DNA of 64,000 nt, from positions 806,001 to 870,000 of the forward strand of contig NZ_JAGHZS010000001.1 in the NCBI RefSeq assembly GCF_017745275.1. The letters run 5' to 3'. A model generated the notes under the pieces. The model ran no database searches. It saw only the letters and a program-made list of their open reading frames with translations, and was not told where the DNA came from. Position 1 is the stretch's first letter, and each line of letters opens with the position of its first letter. Of the stretch, positions 9,290 to 17,382 are shown piece after piece. The DNA is from Chitinophaga sp. (GTDB lineage: Bacteria > Bacteroidota > Bacteroidia > Chitinophagales > Chitinophagaceae). The translations under genes and the position numbers were made by a program.

Positions 9290-9405
9290 AGCTGAAAGCA
9301 TAAAGCACAAAGCATAAAGCTATTGAAGCGATTGATTAAAGCGAAAATCTTCGCTCTCATCAATCGCTTCAATAGCTTTATGCTTTGTGCTTTATGCTTT
9401 CAGCT
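9290..9405. repeat. Heptad palindrome, subfamily B
   Basis: AGCTGAAAGCATAAAGCACAAAGCATAAAGCTATTGAAGCGATTGAT... and its near-perfect reverse complement; fills the FKBP/aroC convergent gap and overlaps the aroC stop. Confidence 0.9.
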
Positions 9406-10390
9406 TCCTCGGCCTGCGTTGTTCCAGCAGCATAAAATCTGCCAGCACCATAGCCGTTACTGCCTCCAGTACTACGGGTACACGGAGCGCAATACATAAG
9501 TCGTGGCGCCCTTTCACACTGAATGTTTCCACTTCCCCGCTTTTGATATTCAGGGTTTGTTGTTCCTTTGGTGTGCTGGACGTAGGCTTCACTGCAATCC
9601 GGAATACCAGCGGGTTACCGTTGGTGATACCGCCTACCACGCCGCCGGCATGATTAGTAGCTGTTTTACCGGTTTTATCCAGGATGGCATCGTTGTGTTC
9701 CAATCCTTTCATTTTGGCGGCGGCAAAGCCAGCGCCAAATTCAATACCTTTCACCGCGGGGATAGCAAATACTGCATGTGCCAGCGCTGACTCCAGGGAA
9801 TCAAAGAAGGGTTCTCCCAATCCGATAGGCAGGCCGTCTACCACACATTCCACGATACCGCCTACAGAATCTTTCGCCGCAATAGCTGCTTCCAGGCCTT
9901 CTTCCGCATTGGCATAGCCACCCACTTCTGTGATGGTAGCATTTACCTGGATATCGTTCCCTAAAATTTTCTTGGCAATAACACCGGCTGCTACCAGATT
10001 GAGGGTGAGCCTGCCGCTGAAATGCCCGCCACCACGGTAGTCTTCAAAGCCTCCGAATTTTTCGGTGGCTACAAAGTCGGCATGACCCGGACGCGGGAAC
10101 TCTCGTAATTTATCATAATCGGCGCTACGGGTATTGTTATTTTCAAACAAGATAGTCACGGGTGCGCCGGTTGTATGATCATTAAACACACCGGATTTAA
10201 TGAACGGTAAATCTTCTTCTTTTCGGGGAGTAGTGCCCCTGGAGCCGCCTTTACGGCGTTCCAGGTCTGCCAGGAAATCTTCCTGCTTTAAAGGCAGGCC
10301 GGCAGGAATGCCATCTATATTTACGCCAACACTGGCGCCATGTGATTCTCCAAAAACGTTGACCCTGAATAATCTGCCAAAACTGTTCAC
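9392..10390 (-). CDS. aroC: Chorismate synthase
   Basis: FGESHGASVGVNIDGIPAGLP, RPGHADFVATEKFGGFEDYRGGGHFSGR, NHAGGVVGGITNG. Confidence 0.97.
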   Translation of the reverse strand: MNSFGRLFRVNVFGESHGASVGVNIDGIPAGLPLKQEDFLADLERRKGGSRGTTPRKEEDLPFIKSGVFNDHTTGAPVTILFENNNTRSADYDKLREFPRPGHADFVATEKFGGFEDYRGGGHFSGRLTLNLVAAGVIAKKILGNDIQVNATITEVGGYANAEEGLEAAIAAKDSVGGIVECVVDGLPIGLGEPFFDSLESALAHAVFAIPAVKGIEFGAGFAAAKMKGLEHNDAILDKTGKTATNHAGGVVGGITNGNPLVFRIAVKPTSSTPKEQQTLNIKSGEVETFSVKGRHDLCIALRVPVVLEAVTAMVLADFMLLEQRRPRKLKA

Positions 10391-10417: not shown

Positions 10418-10520
10418 GCTGTTAGCTTTTAGCAGTCAGCTTTTAGCAAATGCAGCGGAGATTAACATATTATATAGTCTCGCTGCATTTGCTAAAAGCT
10501 GACTGCTAAAAGCTAACAGC
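10418..10520. repeat. Heptad palindrome, subfamily A
   Basis: Identical 40-bp arms GCTGTTAGCTTTTAGCAGTCAGCTTTTAGCAAATGCAGCG at 10418-10457 and, inverted, 10481-10520. Confidence 0.92.
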
Positions 10521-10527
10521 CAGCACG

Positions 10528-11790
10528 CTATACGCTTACCGCAACTTTGCCACCTAACAAGGCCAGGTGATCATAAAATTCCGGGTAAGATTTATTGATG
10601 GCTTCTGCATTGTCGATGGTAACAGGACCATCGGCGGTGAGCGCAGCCACTGCGCAGGCCATCGCGATGCGGTGATCATTATGCGAATGCACGTGGGCGC
10701 CTTTAATACCGGTGCCACCGTGTACCAGCATGAGATCGCCCTGCAGGTCTATTTTAATACCCATCTTACCAAATTCCTCCTGTAAAGTTAATCCGCGGTC
10801 ACTTTCTTTATGTGCCAGGCGGCTCACTCCTTTTATTTTCGTAGTGCCGTGGCAGTTAGCAGCCAGTGCTACCAGCGGAGGAAACAGGTCAGGGCAATCT
10901 GTTGCATCTATTTCAAATGGTTGGAGTCCGCCTTTTTCTATGTTTACGGTGAATACTCCGGACATCAGGTGGGCACCTGCTTTTTCCAGCGCTTCCAGTA
11001 TCGCCTTGTCTGACTGTGCAGAGGCGACATTCAGGTGCTGTACTTCCGCTTTACCCGCTACTGCTGCTGCTACCAGCAGGAATGCGGCGCCGCTCCAGTC
11101 ACCTTCTACCGTATAATCTACGGCTTTATACGCCTGTTTGCTGCCGAAATGGAATGTTTCGAAATTCTTTTCTGTTACCTGTACACCAAAATGTGCCATC
11201 AGTTGCAGGGTTAACGCAATGTATGGTTTGCTCTTCAGGTCTGTTACTGTGATCGTCGCATTTTCAGCGGTAGCGCCATATGCCATCAGCAAACCAGTGA
11301 GGAACTGGGAGCTTAATGATCCATCGATCGTAATATCTTTAGGTTGTAGCGGGCCCTGGATATGCAGCGGCAGCTTACCACCCTGTGTAGTGCATTTCAC
11401 CTCCAATTGTGGCAATACCTGCTCGAAGAAGTCCATTGGGCGGGTAGTTAAGCTACCATGTCCTTCAATGGTAATAGGCAGGGAAGACAATGCTGCGATA
11501 GGTGTAAACATACGGATACCGAGGCCTGATTCGCCGCAGTTAATTTCATCATAAAACGGGGCTACGCCATTGCTGGTGATTTCAAAATAATCGTATTCCC
11601 GTTTGATCTTAGCACCCAGATTTTCGGCTACTTCCAGTGCTGCCAGGCAGTCATTGCTGAGGCCAGGATTACGGATGATCGTCGTTCCCTTTGCCAGCAA
11701 AGCTGCTGCTACAGCGCGTTGCATAGCGCTTTTGGAAGGATTGGCCGTAACGGTACCGGCAATGGTAGCTGGTGATACAGTAACTTGCAT
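10528..11790 (-). CDS. aroA: 3-phosphoshikimate 1-carboxyvinyltransferase (EPSP synthase)
   Basis: NPSKSAMQRAVAAALLAKG, GESGLGIRMF, DGSLSSQFLTGLL, HNDHRIAMACAVAAL. Confidence 0.96.
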   Translation of the reverse strand: MQVTVSPATIAGTVTANPSKSAMQRAVAAALLAKGTTIIRNPGLSNDCLAALEVAENLGAKIKREYDYFEITSNGVAPFYDEINCGESGLGIRMFTPIAALSSLPITIEGHGSLTTRPMDFFEQVLPQLEVKCTTQGGKLPLHIQGPLQPKDITIDGSLSSQFLTGLLMAYGATAENATITVTDLKSKPYIALTLQLMAHFGVQVTEKNFETFHFGSKQAYKAVDYTVEGDWSGAAFLLVAAAVAGKAEVQHLNVASAQSDKAILEALEKAGAHLMSGVFTVNIEKGGLQPFEIDATDCPDLFPPLVALAANCHGTTKIKGVSRLAHKESDRGLTLQEEFGKMGIKIDLQGDLMLVHGGTGIKGAHVHSHNDHRIAMACAVAALTADGPVTIDNAEAINKSYPEFYDHLALLGGKVAVSV

Positions 11791-11829: not shown

Positions 11830-12855
11830 TTACAACTCCTGCAGTAACAATTTCAGTTCTGCAATGGGTACCGGCATGGTGGTAGCTTTACCTATTTCCT
11901 CCAGCAGCACAAAATGGATCACATCTTTCTCGCGTTTTTTATCCAGTTTAAAGATATCAAACACGGCCTCTTTATCTGATGTAAAAGCGACTGGCAGTTG
12001 GTAGTCGTTAATCAGTTTTATCAATCGCACGGTGGCGGAAGTAGGCAGGTTCATCAGCTTTTCCGAAAAACGGGTAGCTGCTACCATACCAATTGCTACA
12101 GCTTTACCGTGTGCAATGTGTTCCAGCTTTTCTACCGCATGGCCAAGGGTATGACCGAAATTCAGCCAGCGACGGGGGCCCGTTTCCAGCTCATCTTCCA
12201 ATACTACCTTTGTTTTTGCGGCCACTGATTTTTCCACCAGGTATTCTAATACTGCCACATCACGGGCCAATGCTTTCTCTTTGTTTTGCTCCAGGAAATC
12301 AAATAATTCCGCATCCATGATGCAGGCATATTTAATGATTTCCGCAAAGCCGTTATGCCATTCTTCTGCCGGCATGGTGAGTGGTAAGGTATAGTCGAAC
12401 AGGATAAACTGCGGCTGGCGGATAATACCCAGCAGGTTTTTATGTTTACCATGACTTACCCCATTCTTGCCGCCAATAGAGGCATCTACCTGTGCCAGCA
12501 AAGTAGTGGGTACAAATCCAAAAGGAATCCCCCGCATATAAATGCTGGCGGCAAACCCGGCTACATCCGTCATCATACCACCACCGATGCCTACCAGCAT
12601 GGTTTTGCGGTCGGCTTCGTAAGCAATGAGGCCATCAATGATTTTTTCAACGGTGGCCATATTCTTTACTTCTTCGCCGGCGGGGATTACAATTTTTTTC
12701 CAATTGTGCAAATGATGACCATGATGTCGTTCCACATTTTCATCTATTACCAATACGGCCCTGTTACGGTCTACATGATTGCCCAGCTGCAGCAGGCTTT
12801 CTCCCAAAAAATAGGTAGTTTCCTGTTGTGCAAACTGGTGGAGTTGTTTGAGCAT
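11830..12855 (-). CDS. aroB: 3-dehydroquinate synthase
   Basis: PAGEEVKNMATVEKI, GIGGGMMTDVAGFAASIYMRGIPFGFVPTTLLAQVDASIGGK, NFGHTLGHAVE. Confidence 0.97.
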   Translation of the reverse strand: MLKQLHQFAQQETTYFLGESLLQLGNHVDRNRAVLVIDENVERHHGHHLHNWKKIVIPAGEEVKNMATVEKIIDGLIAYEADRKTMLVGIGGGMMTDVAGFAASIYMRGIPFGFVPTTLLAQVDASIGGKNGVSHGKHKNLLGIIRQPQFILFDYTLPLTMPAEEWHNGFAEIIKYACIMDAELFDFLEQNKEKALARDVAVLEYLVEKSVAAKTKVVLEDELETGPRRWLNFGHTLGHAVEKLEHIAHGKAVAIGMVAATRFSEKLMNLPTSATVRLIKLINDYQLPVAFTSDKEAVFDIFKLDKKREKDVIHFVLLEEIGKATTMPVPIAELKLLLQEL

Positions 12856-12882: not shown

Positions 12883-12991
12883 TAAATAGCTATTAGCTGT
12901 TAGCTTTTAGCTTTTAGTAAATGCAGCGAAGATGATTATATGTTGGTCTTCGCTGCATTTACTAAAAGCTAAAAGCTAATAGCTAACAGCT
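12883..12991. repeat. Heptad palindrome, subfamily A
   Basis: GCTATTAGCTGTTAGCTTTTAGCTTTTAGTAAATGCAGCGAAGA ... inverted TCTTCGCTGCATTTACTAAAAGCTAAAAGCTAATAGCTAACAGC; first two heptads swapped between arms. Confidence 0.9.
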
Positions 12992-12997
12992 GTCTCG

Positions 12998-14101
12998 CTA
13001 TTTCTCTTCGTTCATCACTTTGTTCTGGCGGTTGATGGATTCCAGGTGAACTGCATCGAAATATTTCAGGATGAATTCTTTCGTCAGGCCCAGTTTCTCA
13101 CCTTTTGCGATGTTGCGCTCCAGGATTTCGTTCCAGCGGTTTGTTTGCAGGATGGTGATGTTGTTTTCTTTCTTGTAGGTACCGATTTTTTCAGCAATTT
13201 TCATACGGTTGCCGAGCAACAGCATGATTTCATCATCTACCTGGTTGATTTGCGCACGCAGTTTTTCCAGGGCAGAGTTGAAGTCTTTTTTATCGGTATG
13301 TTCTCTTCTCCAAACGATACCATCCAGCAGTTCTGCCAATTTTTCCGGTGTCACCTGTTGTTTGGCATCGCTCCATGCGTTGTCCGGATCTACGTGTGTT
13401 TCCAGCATCAGACCATCGTAATCGAGGTCAATGGCTTCCTGTGAAACTTCCTGTAAGATATCGCGACGGCCGGAGATGTGTGATGGATCGCAGATCATTG
13501 GCAGTTCAGGCATACGGCGTTTCAGCTCAATAGCCAGGTGCCACATCGGCGCGTTGCGGTATTGGGTGTTACCATAGCTGGAGAATCCACGATGGATTAA
13601 ACCTACTTTGGTGATACCTGCTTTCTGAATTCTTTCTACAGCGCCGAGCCACAGTTCGAGGTCCGGATTGATAGGATTCTTAATTAAAACGGTAGTATCA
13701 ACACCTTTCAGGGCGTCGGCTACTTCCTGTACGGAGAAAGGGTTTACCGTGGTACGTGCACCTACCCACAGGATATCTACACCAAAATGCAATGCATCTT
13801 CTACCTGTTTAGCAGTAGCTACTTCCACTGCCAGTGGTAAGCCGGTGATTTCGCGGGCTTTCTGCAACCATGCAAGGCCTTTGGTACCGATACCTTCAAA
13901 GGAACCGGGACGGGTACGTGGCTTCCAGATACCAGCGCGTAACACGTCTACTTTACCAGTTTTTTGCAGGGCCAATGCGGTGGCTAATACCTGCTCTTCG
14001 GTTTCTGCACTGCAGGGTCCGGAAATGATCAACGGCTTTTTATCGGAAGACGGATCGGAGAATTTGGTTTTAGATAAAATCTGTTCCATTGTCTGTACCA
14101 T
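12998..14101 (-). CDS. Bifunctional 3-deoxy-7-phosphoheptulonate synthase / chorismate mutase
   Basis: IISGPCSAETEEQV, GIWKPRTRPGSFEGIG, CDPSHISG; C-terminal LRAQINQVDDEIMLLLGNRMKIAEKIGTYKKENN chorismate mutase helix. Confidence 0.95.
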   Translation of the reverse strand: MVQTMEQILSKTKFSDPSSDKKPLIISGPCSAETEEQVLATALALQKTGKVDVLRAGIWKPRTRPGSFEGIGTKGLAWLQKAREITGLPLAVEVATAKQVEDALHFGVDILWVGARTTVNPFSVQEVADALKGVDTTVLIKNPINPDLELWLGAVERIQKAGITKVGLIHRGFSSYGNTQYRNAPMWHLAIELKRRMPELPMICDPSHISGRRDILQEVSQEAIDLDYDGLMLETHVDPDNAWSDAKQQVTPEKLAELLDGIVWRREHTDKKDFNSALEKLRAQINQVDDEIMLLLGNRMKIAEKIGTYKKENNITILQTNRWNEILERNIAKGEKLGLTKEFILKYFDAVHLESINRQNKVMNEEK

Positions 14102-14135: not shown

Positions 14136-14978
14136 TTATTTCAGGATCTTCCTGATTTTATTGGATTTTTGAATCAGTTTATAAAAAGTATCGTAGTCTT
14201 CTGTTTCGAGTAATGACTTCATTTGCTGTAGCTGGCTGATATGTTCATCCAGTACATCCAGCACGTTGTTACGGTTATGCTTGAAGATCGGCACCCACAT
14301 ATCAGGCGAGCTTTTCGCCAGGCGCACGGTAGATTCGAAACCACCGCTGGCCAGTTCAAAGATGCGGCCTGACTCTTTCTCTTTTTTCAACACTGTTAAT
14401 GCCAGTGCAAAAGAGGTGATGTGAGAGATATGCGATACATAAGCTGTGTGCAGGTCGTGCTCTTCTGCATTCATATATACGGTGCGCATCTGCAGTTGGT
14501 CTACCATATTTTCCACTACTTCCAGGGCATCTTCATCGCTGTTTTTCACATCGCATAATACCATGGTTTTGTTGACGAACAGGTTGCGTATCGCTGCATC
14601 GGGGCCGGAATACTCGGTGCCGGCCATCGGGTGGGCAGCCACGAAGCGGCCTCTGTTTGGATGACCGGCAACGAGTTGCAGTATTTTTTCTTTGGTAGAA
14701 CCTACGTCCATAATTACCTGGCCAGGGCGCGCCTGATCCATGATACCGGGCAATGCCTGTAATACGCCATCCACGGGAATGGCCAGTATTACCAGGTCGG
14801 AGCGCTGCATGGCTGCTTCCAGGGTAGCGCCTTCATCGATGATATGAAGGTCCAGTGCACGTTGCAGGTGCTCCTGGTTGTTGTCTACCCCGATCACCCG
14901 TTCCGCCACGCCTTTTTCTTTCAGCGTAATGGCGAGTGAGCCTCCTATTAAACCCGTACCTATTATTGTTACGATCAT
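14136..14978 (-). CDS. tyrA: Prephenate dehydrogenase
   Basis: IIGTGLIGGSLAITLKEKG, DVGSTKEKIL, AAHPMAGTEYSGP. Confidence 0.93.
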   Translation of the reverse strand: MIVTIIGTGLIGGSLAITLKEKGVAERVIGVDNNQEHLQRALDLHIIDEGATLEAAMQRSDLVILAIPVDGVLQALPGIMDQARPGQVIMDVGSTKEKILQLVAGHPNRGRFVAAHPMAGTEYSGPDAAIRNLFVNKTMVLCDVKNSDEDALEVVENMVDQLQMRTVYMNAEEHDLHTAYVSHISHITSFALALTVLKKEKESGRIFELASGGFESTVRLAKSSPDMWVPIFKHNRNNVLDVLDEHISQLQQMKSLLETEDYDTFYKLIQKSNKIRKILK

Positions 14979-16138
14979 TGTATGCTTGTTTTGATGCGTG
15001 CTATCGCTTCTTCAAATACTTTTTCTTCCTGGCAGAGACTTACCCTGATATATCCGTTTCCATTGCTGCCGAATATGCCGCCGGGAGTAATGAATACACG
15101 GGCTTTTTGCAGGATCTCATCTGTTAACGTATAGCCGTTATCGATAGTAGCCGGAATTTTTGCCCATACGAACATTCCTACCTGGTTTTTATCGTAGGTG
15201 CAGTGCAACAGGTCCAGCAACTGGAATACTTTTTCACGGCGGCCGCGATAAATTTTATTCAGGTTGTCGTACCAGTCTTTCCCCAGTTGCAACGCCTTTA
15301 CAGCGGCCATTTGCATAGGTTGGAACATACCGGAATCCATATTGGATTTGAAACGCAATACTTCACTGATCCATTCGGCTTTACCAACCAGCATGCCTAT
15401 ACGCCAGCCTGCCATGTTAGATGATTTGCTGAGGGAGTTTAATTCCAGCACCACGTCTTTGGCACCTTCAAACTGCAACAGGCTTTCCGGTTGCTCATTT
15501 AAAATGAAGCTATACGGATTGTCGTGGCAGATGAGGATATCATGTTGTTTTGCGAAAGCAATCAGCTTTGCAGCAAATTCCTTATTCACTTTAGCGCCGG
15601 TAGGCATATGCGGGTAGTTTACCCACATCAGTTTTACGCGGCTCAGGTCTCTTTTCGCCAGGGCGTCCAGATCAGGTAACCAACCATTTGCTTCAATCAG
15701 GTCGTAATCCACTACGGTAGCGCCACTGAGGTTTACCGCGGAGCGATAAGTAGGATAGCCCGGGTTGGGGATGAGCGCTTCATCGCCTTCCTGCAGGTAG
15801 GTCATGCAGATGTGCATAATTCCTTCTTTGGAACCTATCAGTGGCAATACTTCTGTATCCGGGTTCAGGGTTACGTTGTAGTAGCGCTGATACCATTCTG
15901 CCATTGCCTTACGCAGGGCGGGAATCCCTTTATAGCCCTGGTAGTTGTGGGTATTGGGCAACACAGCATTTTCGTTTAATGCAGCCACCACAGAAGGATG
16001 CGGAGGTAAATCGGGGCTACCGATACCGAGGTTAATGACCCGGGTACCTGTTTGATTCATTTCCTCTATTTCCCTGAGTTTTTTGGAGAAGTAGTATTCT
16101 TCTGTGCCTTGTAATCTTTTAGCAACCTGTATCTGCAT
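14975..16138 (-). CDS. Class I/II pyridoxal phosphate aminotransferase
   Basis: NLGIGSPDLPPHPSVV, NPGYPTYRSAV, ELNSLSKSSNMAGWRIGMLVG PLP-lysine motif; overlaps tyrA start. Confidence 0.93.
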   Translation of the reverse strand: MQIQVAKRLQGTEEYYFSKKLREIEEMNQTGTRVINLGIGSPDLPPHPSVVAALNENAVLPNTHNYQGYKGIPALRKAMAEWYQRYYNVTLNPDTEVLPLIGSKEGIMHICMTYLQEGDEALIPNPGYPTYRSAVNLSGATVVDYDLIEANGWLPDLDALAKRDLSRVKLMWVNYPHMPTGAKVNKEFAAKLIAFAKQHDILICHDNPYSFILNEQPESLLQFEGAKDVVLELNSLSKSSNMAGWRIGMLVGKAEWISEVLRFKSNMDSGMFQPMQMAAVKALQLGKDWYDNLNKIYRGRREKVFQLLDLLHCTYDKNQVGMFVWAKIPATIDNGYTLTDEILQKARVFITPGGIFGSNGNGYIRVSLCQEEKVFEEAIARIKTSIQ

Positions 16139-16146
16139 AAAACTGA

Positions 16147-16971
16147 TTAATGTGTTTTTCCTTTTTTATAAATACCCAAAACTTTCAGGTGTTCGGTCAA
16201 TGGCGCTATTTTGTCGAGTGCTTTTTCGAAGTGAGCGGCATTATCGAATTCCATATCTGCGTGGAAGTAATAGTTCCATTCTTTTGCCGGGATAGGAAAG
16301 GATTGCAGTTTAGAGAGATTAATACCTGCTACTGCTATCTGTGTCAGCACTTTGGCCAGGCTTCCTCTGTCGTGGCTGGTTTGGAAATATACTGAAGCTT
16401 TGTTGGCATCTTCCGCAGTAGCTACCGGGGTACGGGATACGGCGAGGAAGCGGGTATAATTATTTTTATTGGTATGAATATTTGGCGCGATGATATCCAA
16501 TTCGAAGATTTCGGCGGCCAGTTTACCGGCAATAGCGGCGGTACTTTTCAGTTTCTTTTGTCTTACGTGCCGGGCGCTGAGGGCGGTATCTTCCGTTTCT
16601 ACCAGCTTGATATGCGGGTATTTTTCCAGGAAGTCCATGCACTGTAATAACGCCATGGGATGGGAATGCACCTCGCGGAGGTCTTCCATCGTTTGGCCGG
16701 GTAATACCATCAGGTGTTGATTGATCTGGAGGTAGATTTCACCGATGATGTGCAGGCCGGAATTCTTGATGAGGGTATAGTTAGGTAAGATGCTGCCGGC
16801 GATAGAATTTTCGATGGCCATGATACCTGCATCCACATCGGGTTGCTGTTTTGCTTTTTTAACCAGTTCTGCAAAGGAGCCACAGCACTCTATTTCGATT
16901 TTTTTACCGAAATATTCCTGGGCCGCAACCTGGTGAAAACATCCTTCAAACCCCTGTATGGCAATTTTCAT
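16147..16971 (-). CDS. pheA: Prephenate dehydratase with ACT domain
   Basis: IAIQGFEGCFHQVAAQEYFG, GIMAIENSIAGSI, NYTRFLAV, SVYFQTSHDRGSLAKVL (ACT). Confidence 0.94.
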   Translation of the reverse strand: MKIAIQGFEGCFHQVAAQEYFGKKIEIECCGSFAELVKKAKQQPDVDAGIMAIENSIAGSILPNYTLIKNSGLHIIGEIYLQINQHLMVLPGQTMEDLREVHSHPMALLQCMDFLEKYPHIKLVETEDTALSARHVRQKKLKSTAAIAGKLAAEIFELDIIAPNIHTNKNNYTRFLAVSRTPVATAEDANKASVYFQTSHDRGSLAKVLTQIAVAGINLSKLQSFPIPAKEWNYYFHADMEFDNAAHFEKALDKIAPLTEHLKVLGIYKKGKTH

Positions 16972-17031
16972 GTGTGTGTGATTGATTTTTATTTATTTAT
17001 AGTTGCTGTAGCAACTAGCTATTAAAAACAG

Positions 17032-17058
17032 AAAGGGTCCCAGTCCGGGACCCTTTTT
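17032..17058 (-). terminator. Attenuator terminator 2 of the aromatic operon
   Basis: Minus strand AAAAAGGGTCCC-GGACT-GGGACCCTTTC; competing pairing GGGACTC (17096-17102) with GGGTCCC (17047-17053). Confidence 0.85.
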
Positions 17059-17084
17059 GCGTTGTACTTTTTATGGTAAGTATG

Positions 17085-17195
17085 TTATTGCAAACGAGTC
17101 CCCTGCTTCTTCGCATAAAAGAAGTAAGAGAAGTAATAAAAAAAGGAATTGCCTAAAGCTGGCTGTAACATATACTTACGGTTTGTTAATGTCAT
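17085..17195 (-). CDS. Aromatic leader peptide 2, MTLTNRKYMLQPALGNSFFYYFSYFFYAKKQGTRLQ (possible internal start at MLQPAL)
   Basis: 36-codon ORF with FFYYFSYFFY run directly upstream of a terminator; starts 2 nt after terminator 1; not in the ORF track. Confidence 0.85.
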   Translation of the reverse strand: MTLTNRKYMLQPALGNSFFYYFSYFFYAKKQGTRLQ

Positions 17196-17196
17196 T

Positions 17197-17229
17197 AAAA
17201 AAGGCCTTCCGGTTTCGGAAGGCCTTTTT
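17197..17229 (-). terminator. Attenuator terminator 1 of the aromatic operon
   Basis: Minus strand AAAAAGGCCTTCCG-AAAC-CGGAAGGCCTTTTTT; competing pairing GGAAGGTC (17255-17262) with GGCCTTCC (17217-17224). Confidence 0.9.
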
Positions 17230-17261
17230 GTAGTATCTTTTATTTTACACAAACGACCTTC

Positions 17262-17321
17262 CTATTCCTGGTACCAGAAATAATAAAAGCCAAAAAATCC
17301 AAAGTTCGTTTGTGGTATCAT
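17262..17321 (-). CDS. Aromatic leader peptide 1, MIPQTNFGFFGFYYFWYQE
   Basis: 19-codon ORF, 9 of codons 7-17 are Phe/Tyr/Trp; promoter upstream, terminator downstream; not in the ORF track. Confidence 0.88.
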   Translation of the reverse strand: MIPQTNFGFFGFYYFWYQE

Positions 17322-17352
17322 GTGCTTGGTTGTACTCTTTTTGAGTGTAGAA

Positions 17353-17382
17353 CAAAAATACGGCACGATTTTAATTATCCAA
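17353..17382 (-). promoter_or_regulatory. Bacteroidota-type promoter of the aromatic operon
   Basis: Minus strand TTG-N19-TATTTTTG, matches TTG/TAnnTTTG consensus, 32 nt before leader 1 ATG. Confidence 0.7.

Follow-up and report, generated by a model that had tools for sequence, protein, structure and literature searches.

Two predicted leader-peptide attenuators in tandem upstream of the aromatic amino acid operon in Chitinophaga

The pheA operon of Chitinophaga sp. is preceded by a pair of leader-peptide attenuators, each formed by a short open reading frame rich in phenylalanine and tyrosine codons and followed by an intrinsic terminator. The pair is real and conserved, is almost certainly functional, and its members very probably stand in series; taken as a whole, the description of the region as two ribosome-mediated transcription attenuators acting in series on one transcript is, in our opinion, highly likely to be correct. 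Tandem Phe/Tyr attenuators had been proposed in the initial annotation of this DNA, and the proposal is supported by conservation of the codons and the stops, by covarying terminators and antiterminators, and by a shared promoter motif.

Results

The aromatic operon

The analysed window is a stretch of 64,000 nucleotides from a genome of 7.94 Mb. By PheA, the named species closest to it belong to Chitinophaga. The genes behind the leader region are the following.

16147–16971, minus strand: pheA, prephenate dehydratase (Pfam PF00800, E 1e-53), with the ATG at 16971
14975–16138, minus strand: class I/II aminotransferase (PF00155, E 1e-58)
14136–14978, minus strand: tyrA, prephenate dehydrogenase (PF02153/PF20463)
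12998–14101, minus strand: DAHP synthase fused to chorismate mutase (PF00793 and PF01817)
11830–12855, minus strand: aroB, 3-dehydroquinate synthase (PF01761/PF24621)
10528–11790, minus strand: aroA, EPSP synthase (PF00275)
9392–10390, minus strand: aroC, chorismate synthase (PF01264)

These genes were initially described as a seven-gene operon. The order of the four-gene core, pheA–aminotransferase–tyrA–DAHP synthase, is kept in 43 of the 44 Chitinophaga loci; that all seven genes share a single transcript is likely, but has not been shown. The DAHP synthase of the operon is the only one found in the genome, type II DAHP synthases being outside the search, and the second PF00793 protein (278 aa) reads as KdsA, judged by its length and start.

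Two larger intra-operon gaps, 12887–12992 and 10427–10511, are occupied by long palindromic hairpins of the GCTAAAAGCTAACAGC.. type. The palindrome at 12887–12992 occurs in about 40 copies genome-wide (81 matches, both strands counted), and hence resembles a mobile palindromic repeat of small size. The one at 10427–10511 was compared with this type by eye only.

Elements of the leader region

The promoter motif, both leaders, both terminators and pheA, all reported initially, are indeed seen on the minus strand at the positions given above and below.

17353–17382, minus strand: Bacteroidota-type promoter motif TTG-N19-TATTTTTG (TTG at 17382–17380, TATTTTTG at 17360–17353), assigned by motif match
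17262–17321, minus strand: leader 1 ORF, MIPQTNFGFFGFYYFWYQE and stop, found in all Chitinophaga loci examined
17300–17314, minus strand: region 1 of module 1 (CACAAACGA..CTTT), with a tentative pairing to region 2 (slide and swap tests, MFE fold)
17265–17280, minus strand: inner hairpin UUUCUG-GUAC-CAGGAA (TTTCTGGTACCAGGAA) around the leader 1 Trp codon, from the RNAalifold consensus
17248–17262, minus strand: region 2 of module 1 (GGAAGG and TCGTTTGTG), beginning at the leader 1 stop codon and supported by 2:3 covariation
17198–17229, minus strand: terminator 1 (regions 3:4), AAAAAGGCCTTCCG-AAAC-CGGAAGGCCTTTTT, with the T-run to 17197
17085–17171, minus strand: leader 2 ORF from the conserved start, MLQPALGNSFFYYFSYFFYAKKQGTRLQ and stop (28 aa), with a further in-frame ATG at 17195
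17090–17103, minus strand: region 2 of module 2 (GGGGACTCGTTTGC), within the last leader 2 codons
17032–17056, minus strand: terminator 2, AAAGGGTCCCGGACTGGGACCCTTT then CTGTTTTT, with a T-rich tail

One boundary needs correction. Leader 2 had been drawn from 17195 to 17085; the frame does end at 17085 and the in-frame ATG at 17195 is real, but the more likely start is 17171, since leader 2 of the relatives begins mostly at the Met aligned with this position. Judging by this alignment, translation probably does not begin at the ATG at 17195.

Each leader contains nine aromatic codons in 14. Among 2000 shuffles of the region that preserved dinucleotides, the best ATG ORF had at most eight such codons in 14, and among the ATG ORFs of 12–60 codons in the 64-kb window, both strands, the two leaders alone reach eight of 14. 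The folding z-score of the 314-nt leader RNA against shuffles is -5.4.

Conservation in Chitinophaga

The sample comprised pheA upstream regions from 50 loci of Chitinophaga, including two or more that duplicate others. Both leaders are present in all 50. The typical leader 1 is M..QTTFGYFYGFYFFWYQE (in L069, MQQTFGYFYGYYFFWYQK), and the typical leader 2 is MLQ..YFFYYFSYFFYAKKQGTRLQ. When modules of a leader plus a terminator were counted automatically, 47 loci had two of them, as opposed to none of 763 shuffled regions; in the remaining three loci both leaders are present, and one terminator stem is missed by the strict rule. These shuffles, and the absence of an equally aromatic ORF in all 2000 shuffles described above, rule out chance ORFs and chance terminators. 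Further, the covariance model of module 1 matches 78 of the 79 Chitinophaga genomes with E at most 1.5e-13; the remaining one is a 530-contig assembly.

The aromatic run in the 36 distinct versions of leader 1 varies almost only between TTT and TTC, TAT and TAC, or Phe and Tyr, and the stop is kept. The 40 versions of leader 2 follow much the same codon pattern, and the Trp codon occurs in none of them. Such synonymous and Phe/Tyr-preserving changes support translation of the leaders, although it remains an inference. Alignment of the pheA upstream regions had been suggested as a check on the aromatic codons and terminators, and across the Chitinophaga loci both are kept.

Terminators and antiterminators

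In both modules an intrinsic terminator lies behind the leader ORF and ahead of pheA, and an alternative antiterminator competes with it. In the alignment of 46 sequences, both sides change at five pairs of terminator 1, and terminator 2 is paired in 97.3% of cells. The module 1 antiterminator, formed by regions 2 and 3, is paired in 91.6% of cells, compared to 48–72% when slid, and the core of the module 2 antiterminator in 99.6%. In the swap test, region 2 of one species was combined with region 3 of another (5000 permutations). The native pairs were more stable than the swapped ones both in module 1 (-15.6 vs -13.5 kcal/mol) and in module 2 (-20.2 vs -18.3 kcal/mol), with 0/5000 in each case.

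The covariation signal comes partly from related sequences, which inflate such tests; hence single compensated cases outweigh counts. In L006 and L069, region 2 has become CCGGGG and region 3 has become CCUCGG, so that the change is compensated. In module 2 of L056, three regions (2, 3 and 4) are altered together. The tentative protector pairing of regions 1 and 2, which rests on module 1 alone, is present in the MFE fold and is less well kept than the other pairings (77% of cells paired, 32–49% when slid; 1/5000 in the swap test). The crossed 2:3 pairings between the modules have energies of only -5.7 and -8.9 kcal/mol vs -15.6 and -20.2 for the cognate ones, that is, by predicted energies the stems of the two modules are orthogonal.

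Several other assignments were considered. No Rfam T-box model matched upstream of the operon up to E 1, and a T-box riboswitch was rejected. The Rfam MicX match on the plus strand (17021–17231) was set aside as it is below the gathering score. Membership in the Rfam Phe_leader family (RF01859) misses the threshold, 37.6 bits vs the gathering score of 55. Finally, an origin of module 1 by borrowing from a different gene in this genome was rejected with the covariance model, whose matches there are module 1, a much weaker module 2 (E 8e-6) and the rest at E 0.02 and above.

Modelled positions of the ribosome

The pairing of regions 2 and 3 was assessed in a model that folds only the RNA beyond the 16-nt downstream edge of the ribosome, the footprint size being assumed. 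With any codon as far as Trp16 in the A site, regions 2 and 3 of module 1 pair with a probability of 1.00; the value is 0.99 for Tyr17, 0.53 for Gln18, and 0 for both Glu19 and the stop. For module 2, the pairing probability is 1.00 along the aromatic run, 0.27 at Gln23, and 0 from Gly24 on. The averages over all species resemble the window values for both modules. Since a stall at each aromatic codon frees region 2, while a ribosome at the end of the leader masks it, all aromatic codons of the runs have positions that suit control codons, at the level of the model and not of a measurement. The masking differs between the modules: in module 1 region 2 starts at the stop codon, and in module 2 it lies inside the last codons. 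In a truncated-RNA model without the ribosome, the 2:3 antiterminator is favoured in module 1, and hence termination of the untranslated leader is unresolved.

A codon-rich leader, a terminator, an antiterminator and, in the model, the codon placement are features of classical attenuators present in both modules. At that, the pair meets most of the testable defining features of the trp, his and phe attenuators, twice over.

Probable serial arrangement

That only RNA reading through terminator 1 can carry leader 2 was part of the original proposal, and the distribution of promoter motifs supports it. The motif TTG-N19-TAnnTTTG is found upstream of leader 1 in all 47 Chitinophaga loci, and the motif with TTG at 17–23 nt in none of the 47 inter-module gaps; a second promoter between the modules is thus unsupported. 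As the only promoter motif is upstream of leader 1, a full-length mRNA that begins there has to read through terminator 1. The promoter rests on a motif match and the single transcript on inference; with this reservation, the single motif supports the serial arrangement. Between the modules, internal promoters of some unknown type remain possible.

Two other arrangements should be weighed here. If each module had its own promoter, the attenuators would be parallel inputs not standing in series. A weak sigma-70-like match at 17195–17167 could serve as the inner promoter, but it comes from a scan that produced fewer matches than shuffles, and the contrast between the upstream regions and the inter-module gaps, as well as the same promoter trend in the tandems of other families (see below), leaves this arrangement very improbable. 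Alternatively, the proximal module with leader 2 could be the only regulator, with module 1 being a leftover or producing a small terminated RNA, for instance a trans-acting leader RNA or peptide. Indeed, leader 2 resembles the single leader of other Chitinophagaceae, and roles in trans are known for released leader peptides, such as peTrpL (PMC7298713). However, in this case too the transcript from the sole promoter motif has to cross terminator 1 to reach full length; moreover, the module 1 antiterminator is preserved by compensatory change, and each aromatic codon of module 1 is positioned so as to free region 2. Hence we consider a regulatory role of leader 2 alone unlikely and prefer the model with both attenuators in series.

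The tryptophan codon of leader 1

Leader 1 was initially proposed to sense Phe, Tyr and Trp, and leader 2 only Phe and Tyr. The Phe/Tyr codons of both leaders and the lack of Trp in leader 2 hold; Trp sensing by leader 1 is plausible but unproven. The TGG codon (Trp16) is invariant in the 36 distinct versions of leader 1. On the other hand, it lies within a hairpin, six pairs of which are kept in nearly all 46 sequences in the RNAalifold consensus, and the invariance of TGG may come from the RNA structure, from Trp sensing, or from both. The palindrome at 17265–17280 may act as a pause hairpin, belong to the 1:2 domain, or form a DNA site.

A refinement of the serial model would have gate 1 respond to Phe, Tyr and Trp and gate 2 to Phe and Tyr only, yielding graded chorismate supply. 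This would agree with TGG being invariant in one leader and absent from the other, with the Trp codon being among the last ones where a stall still fully frees region 2, and with the fact that Trp synthesis also depends on the DAHP synthase of the operon, the only one found. However, the run has eight Phe/Tyr codons and only a single Trp codon, the invariance of the latter could be explained by the conserved palindrome, and the trp operon has an attenuator of its own. Moreover, gates in series form an AND, and hence shortage of Trp alone should open gate 1, but transcription would still be halted at gate 2. We therefore retain gates with different signals only as a tentative refinement, somewhat more doubtful than not. 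The same logic affects the two-step gate on the chorismate flux suggested initially: the series stands, but the AND logic has to be added, since transcription under shortage of Trp alone would stop at gate 2. Compared with the two-step gate, the safer interpretation is a double lock that would leak less and respond more steeply.

Other operons and other families

Other operons of the same genome were sampled by gene only. The trp operon (L103, G000:C11, upstream of trpE) has a single Trp leader of the classic type, MITINKHWWWHGINS and stop, followed by a strong terminator; the his operon (L289, G000:C11, upstream of hisG) has a single His leader, MNTNIHIHHHHHFLPTR and stop, also followed by a strong terminator. 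Hence this genome uses the leader-peptide class of control.

The pheA loci of other Chitinophagaceae have one module in 91 of 96 cases and two modules in none, by strict count. The single leader is similar to leader 2 of Chitinophaga in its place and C-terminal codons.

Tandem leaders are also found in two other families. In family f19, from the same order, they occur in 17 of 38 loci by strict count; tandem loci of this family include L165, L187, L193, L196, L266-L268, L270, L275-L278, L280, L283, L284 and L288. Many of these tandems have two leaders with similar ends (..YGQP / ..YGSP), which looks like duplication on the spot. The second family, f70 of the same class, has a clade with tandems, in 12 of 29 loci by leaders alone (L207, L210, L234-L242, L248) and in one by strict count. 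Leader 2 of this clade resembles that of Chitinophaga (KKRGPVC vs KKQGTRL), and its PheA falls among Chitinophagaceae sequences; this similarity suggests transfer of the operon head. When 23 tandem loci of f19 and f70 were scanned, the promoter motif was found upstream of leader 1 in 13, all of them from f19, and in one locus a motif without TTG was found between the modules.

In the FastTree tree of PheA, Chitinophaga form one clade, f19 is placed elsewhere, and the f70 tandem clade is beside Chitinophaga. Because of this adjacency, the f70 tandems may stem from transfer or from a common ancestor, with losses in the latter case. The tree requires at least ten changes between tandem and not, and its branch support is weak. 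Whether all tandems have a single origin is not decided, as gain and loss are indistinguishable on the PheA tree.

Discussion

Leader-peptide attenuation belongs to textbook knowledge and is almost always depicted with a single leader and a single terminator. The Chitinophaga modules resemble the attenuators of the enteric trp, his and pheA genes and the Rfam Phe_leader (RF01859) in having an ORF with codons for the end product, alternative structures, and an intrinsic terminator before a biosynthetic gene. Unlike those, there are two complete modules in a row, and the phylum is different.

Two described systems have paired attenuators. In the Salmonella mgtCBR leader, two short ORFs each form a part of an attenuator; however, it senses ATP and proline, does not control an amino-acid operon, its effects are additive, and its stem-loops, unlike those of Chitinophaga, do not resemble intrinsic terminators (PMC3641672). 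Its authors called these tandem attenuators a singular example (PMC3641672). The macrolide-resistance operon mefA/msrD also carries two ribosome-mediated attenuators, said to act as a double lock on basal expression, but they are situated before mefA and before msrD, so that msrD alone is behind both, and the drug is sensed by ribosome stalling on the nascent peptide (PMC10314930). Neither system consists of two adjacent leaders with amino-acid codons and intrinsic terminators before one biosynthetic operon.

Two further cases are related. In Flavobacterium psychrophilum, from the same phylum, structured 5' regions upstream of amino-acid biosynthesis operons were reported to give strong clues to leader-peptide attenuation, and the passage concerned mentions no tandem (PMC9723704). 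The tandem riboswitches of B. clausii metE likewise have two modules and two intrinsic terminators in one leader, but they are metabolite-binding RNAs without leader peptides (as cited in PMC3641672). No serial pair on an amino-acid operon was found in the open-access PubMed Central literature, which is not proof of absence; within the same scope, the impression that such a pair on a Bacteroidota aromatic operon had not been described holds.

The leaders, the terminators and antiterminators, their conservation and covariation, the orthogonal stems and the single promoter motif can all be read from the sequences, at the level of prediction. The transcription start, translation, coupling, serial readthrough and physiological purpose are inferred, there being no transcript, ribosome or expression data. 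The proposed mechanism is as follows. RNA polymerase would start just downstream of the TATTTTTG motif. With charged Phe and Tyr (perhaps Trp) tRNAs, the ribosome would reach the leader 1 stop and cover region 2, and terminator 1 would form. With the ribosome stalled on an aromatic codon, region 2 would pair with region 3 and transcription would continue. At leader 2, the same decision would be taken independently, with region 2 inside its own last codons. Readthrough at both gates would be required for the full-length mRNA, and hence the basal leak would be multiplied down and the response to Phe/Tyr shortage would be steeper. For independent gates the readthroughs multiply and the logarithmic sensitivities add; this is arithmetic and not a measurement, and the underlying attenuator response was described by Elf and Ehrenberg (PMC1183508). 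The pair would then serve as a double lock on this operon, which encodes the only DAHP synthase found.

The analysis extends well-supported leader-peptide control to the Bacteroidota, for which the literature searched contains scattered candidates only. The serial pair is kept across the whole genus and is present in at least two other families, and it can be compared with relatives in which this operon has a single gate, so the effects of the second gate on leak, steepness and noise become measurable. Serial leader-peptide attenuation may even be a recurrent design in the Bacteroidota, a multiplicative AND gate whose two codon spectra may differ (in Chitinophaga Phe/Tyr/Trp followed by Phe/Tyr, on orthogonal stems), with lower leak and steeper response than one attenuator would give; we put forward this generalisation as a possibility falling just short of an even chance.
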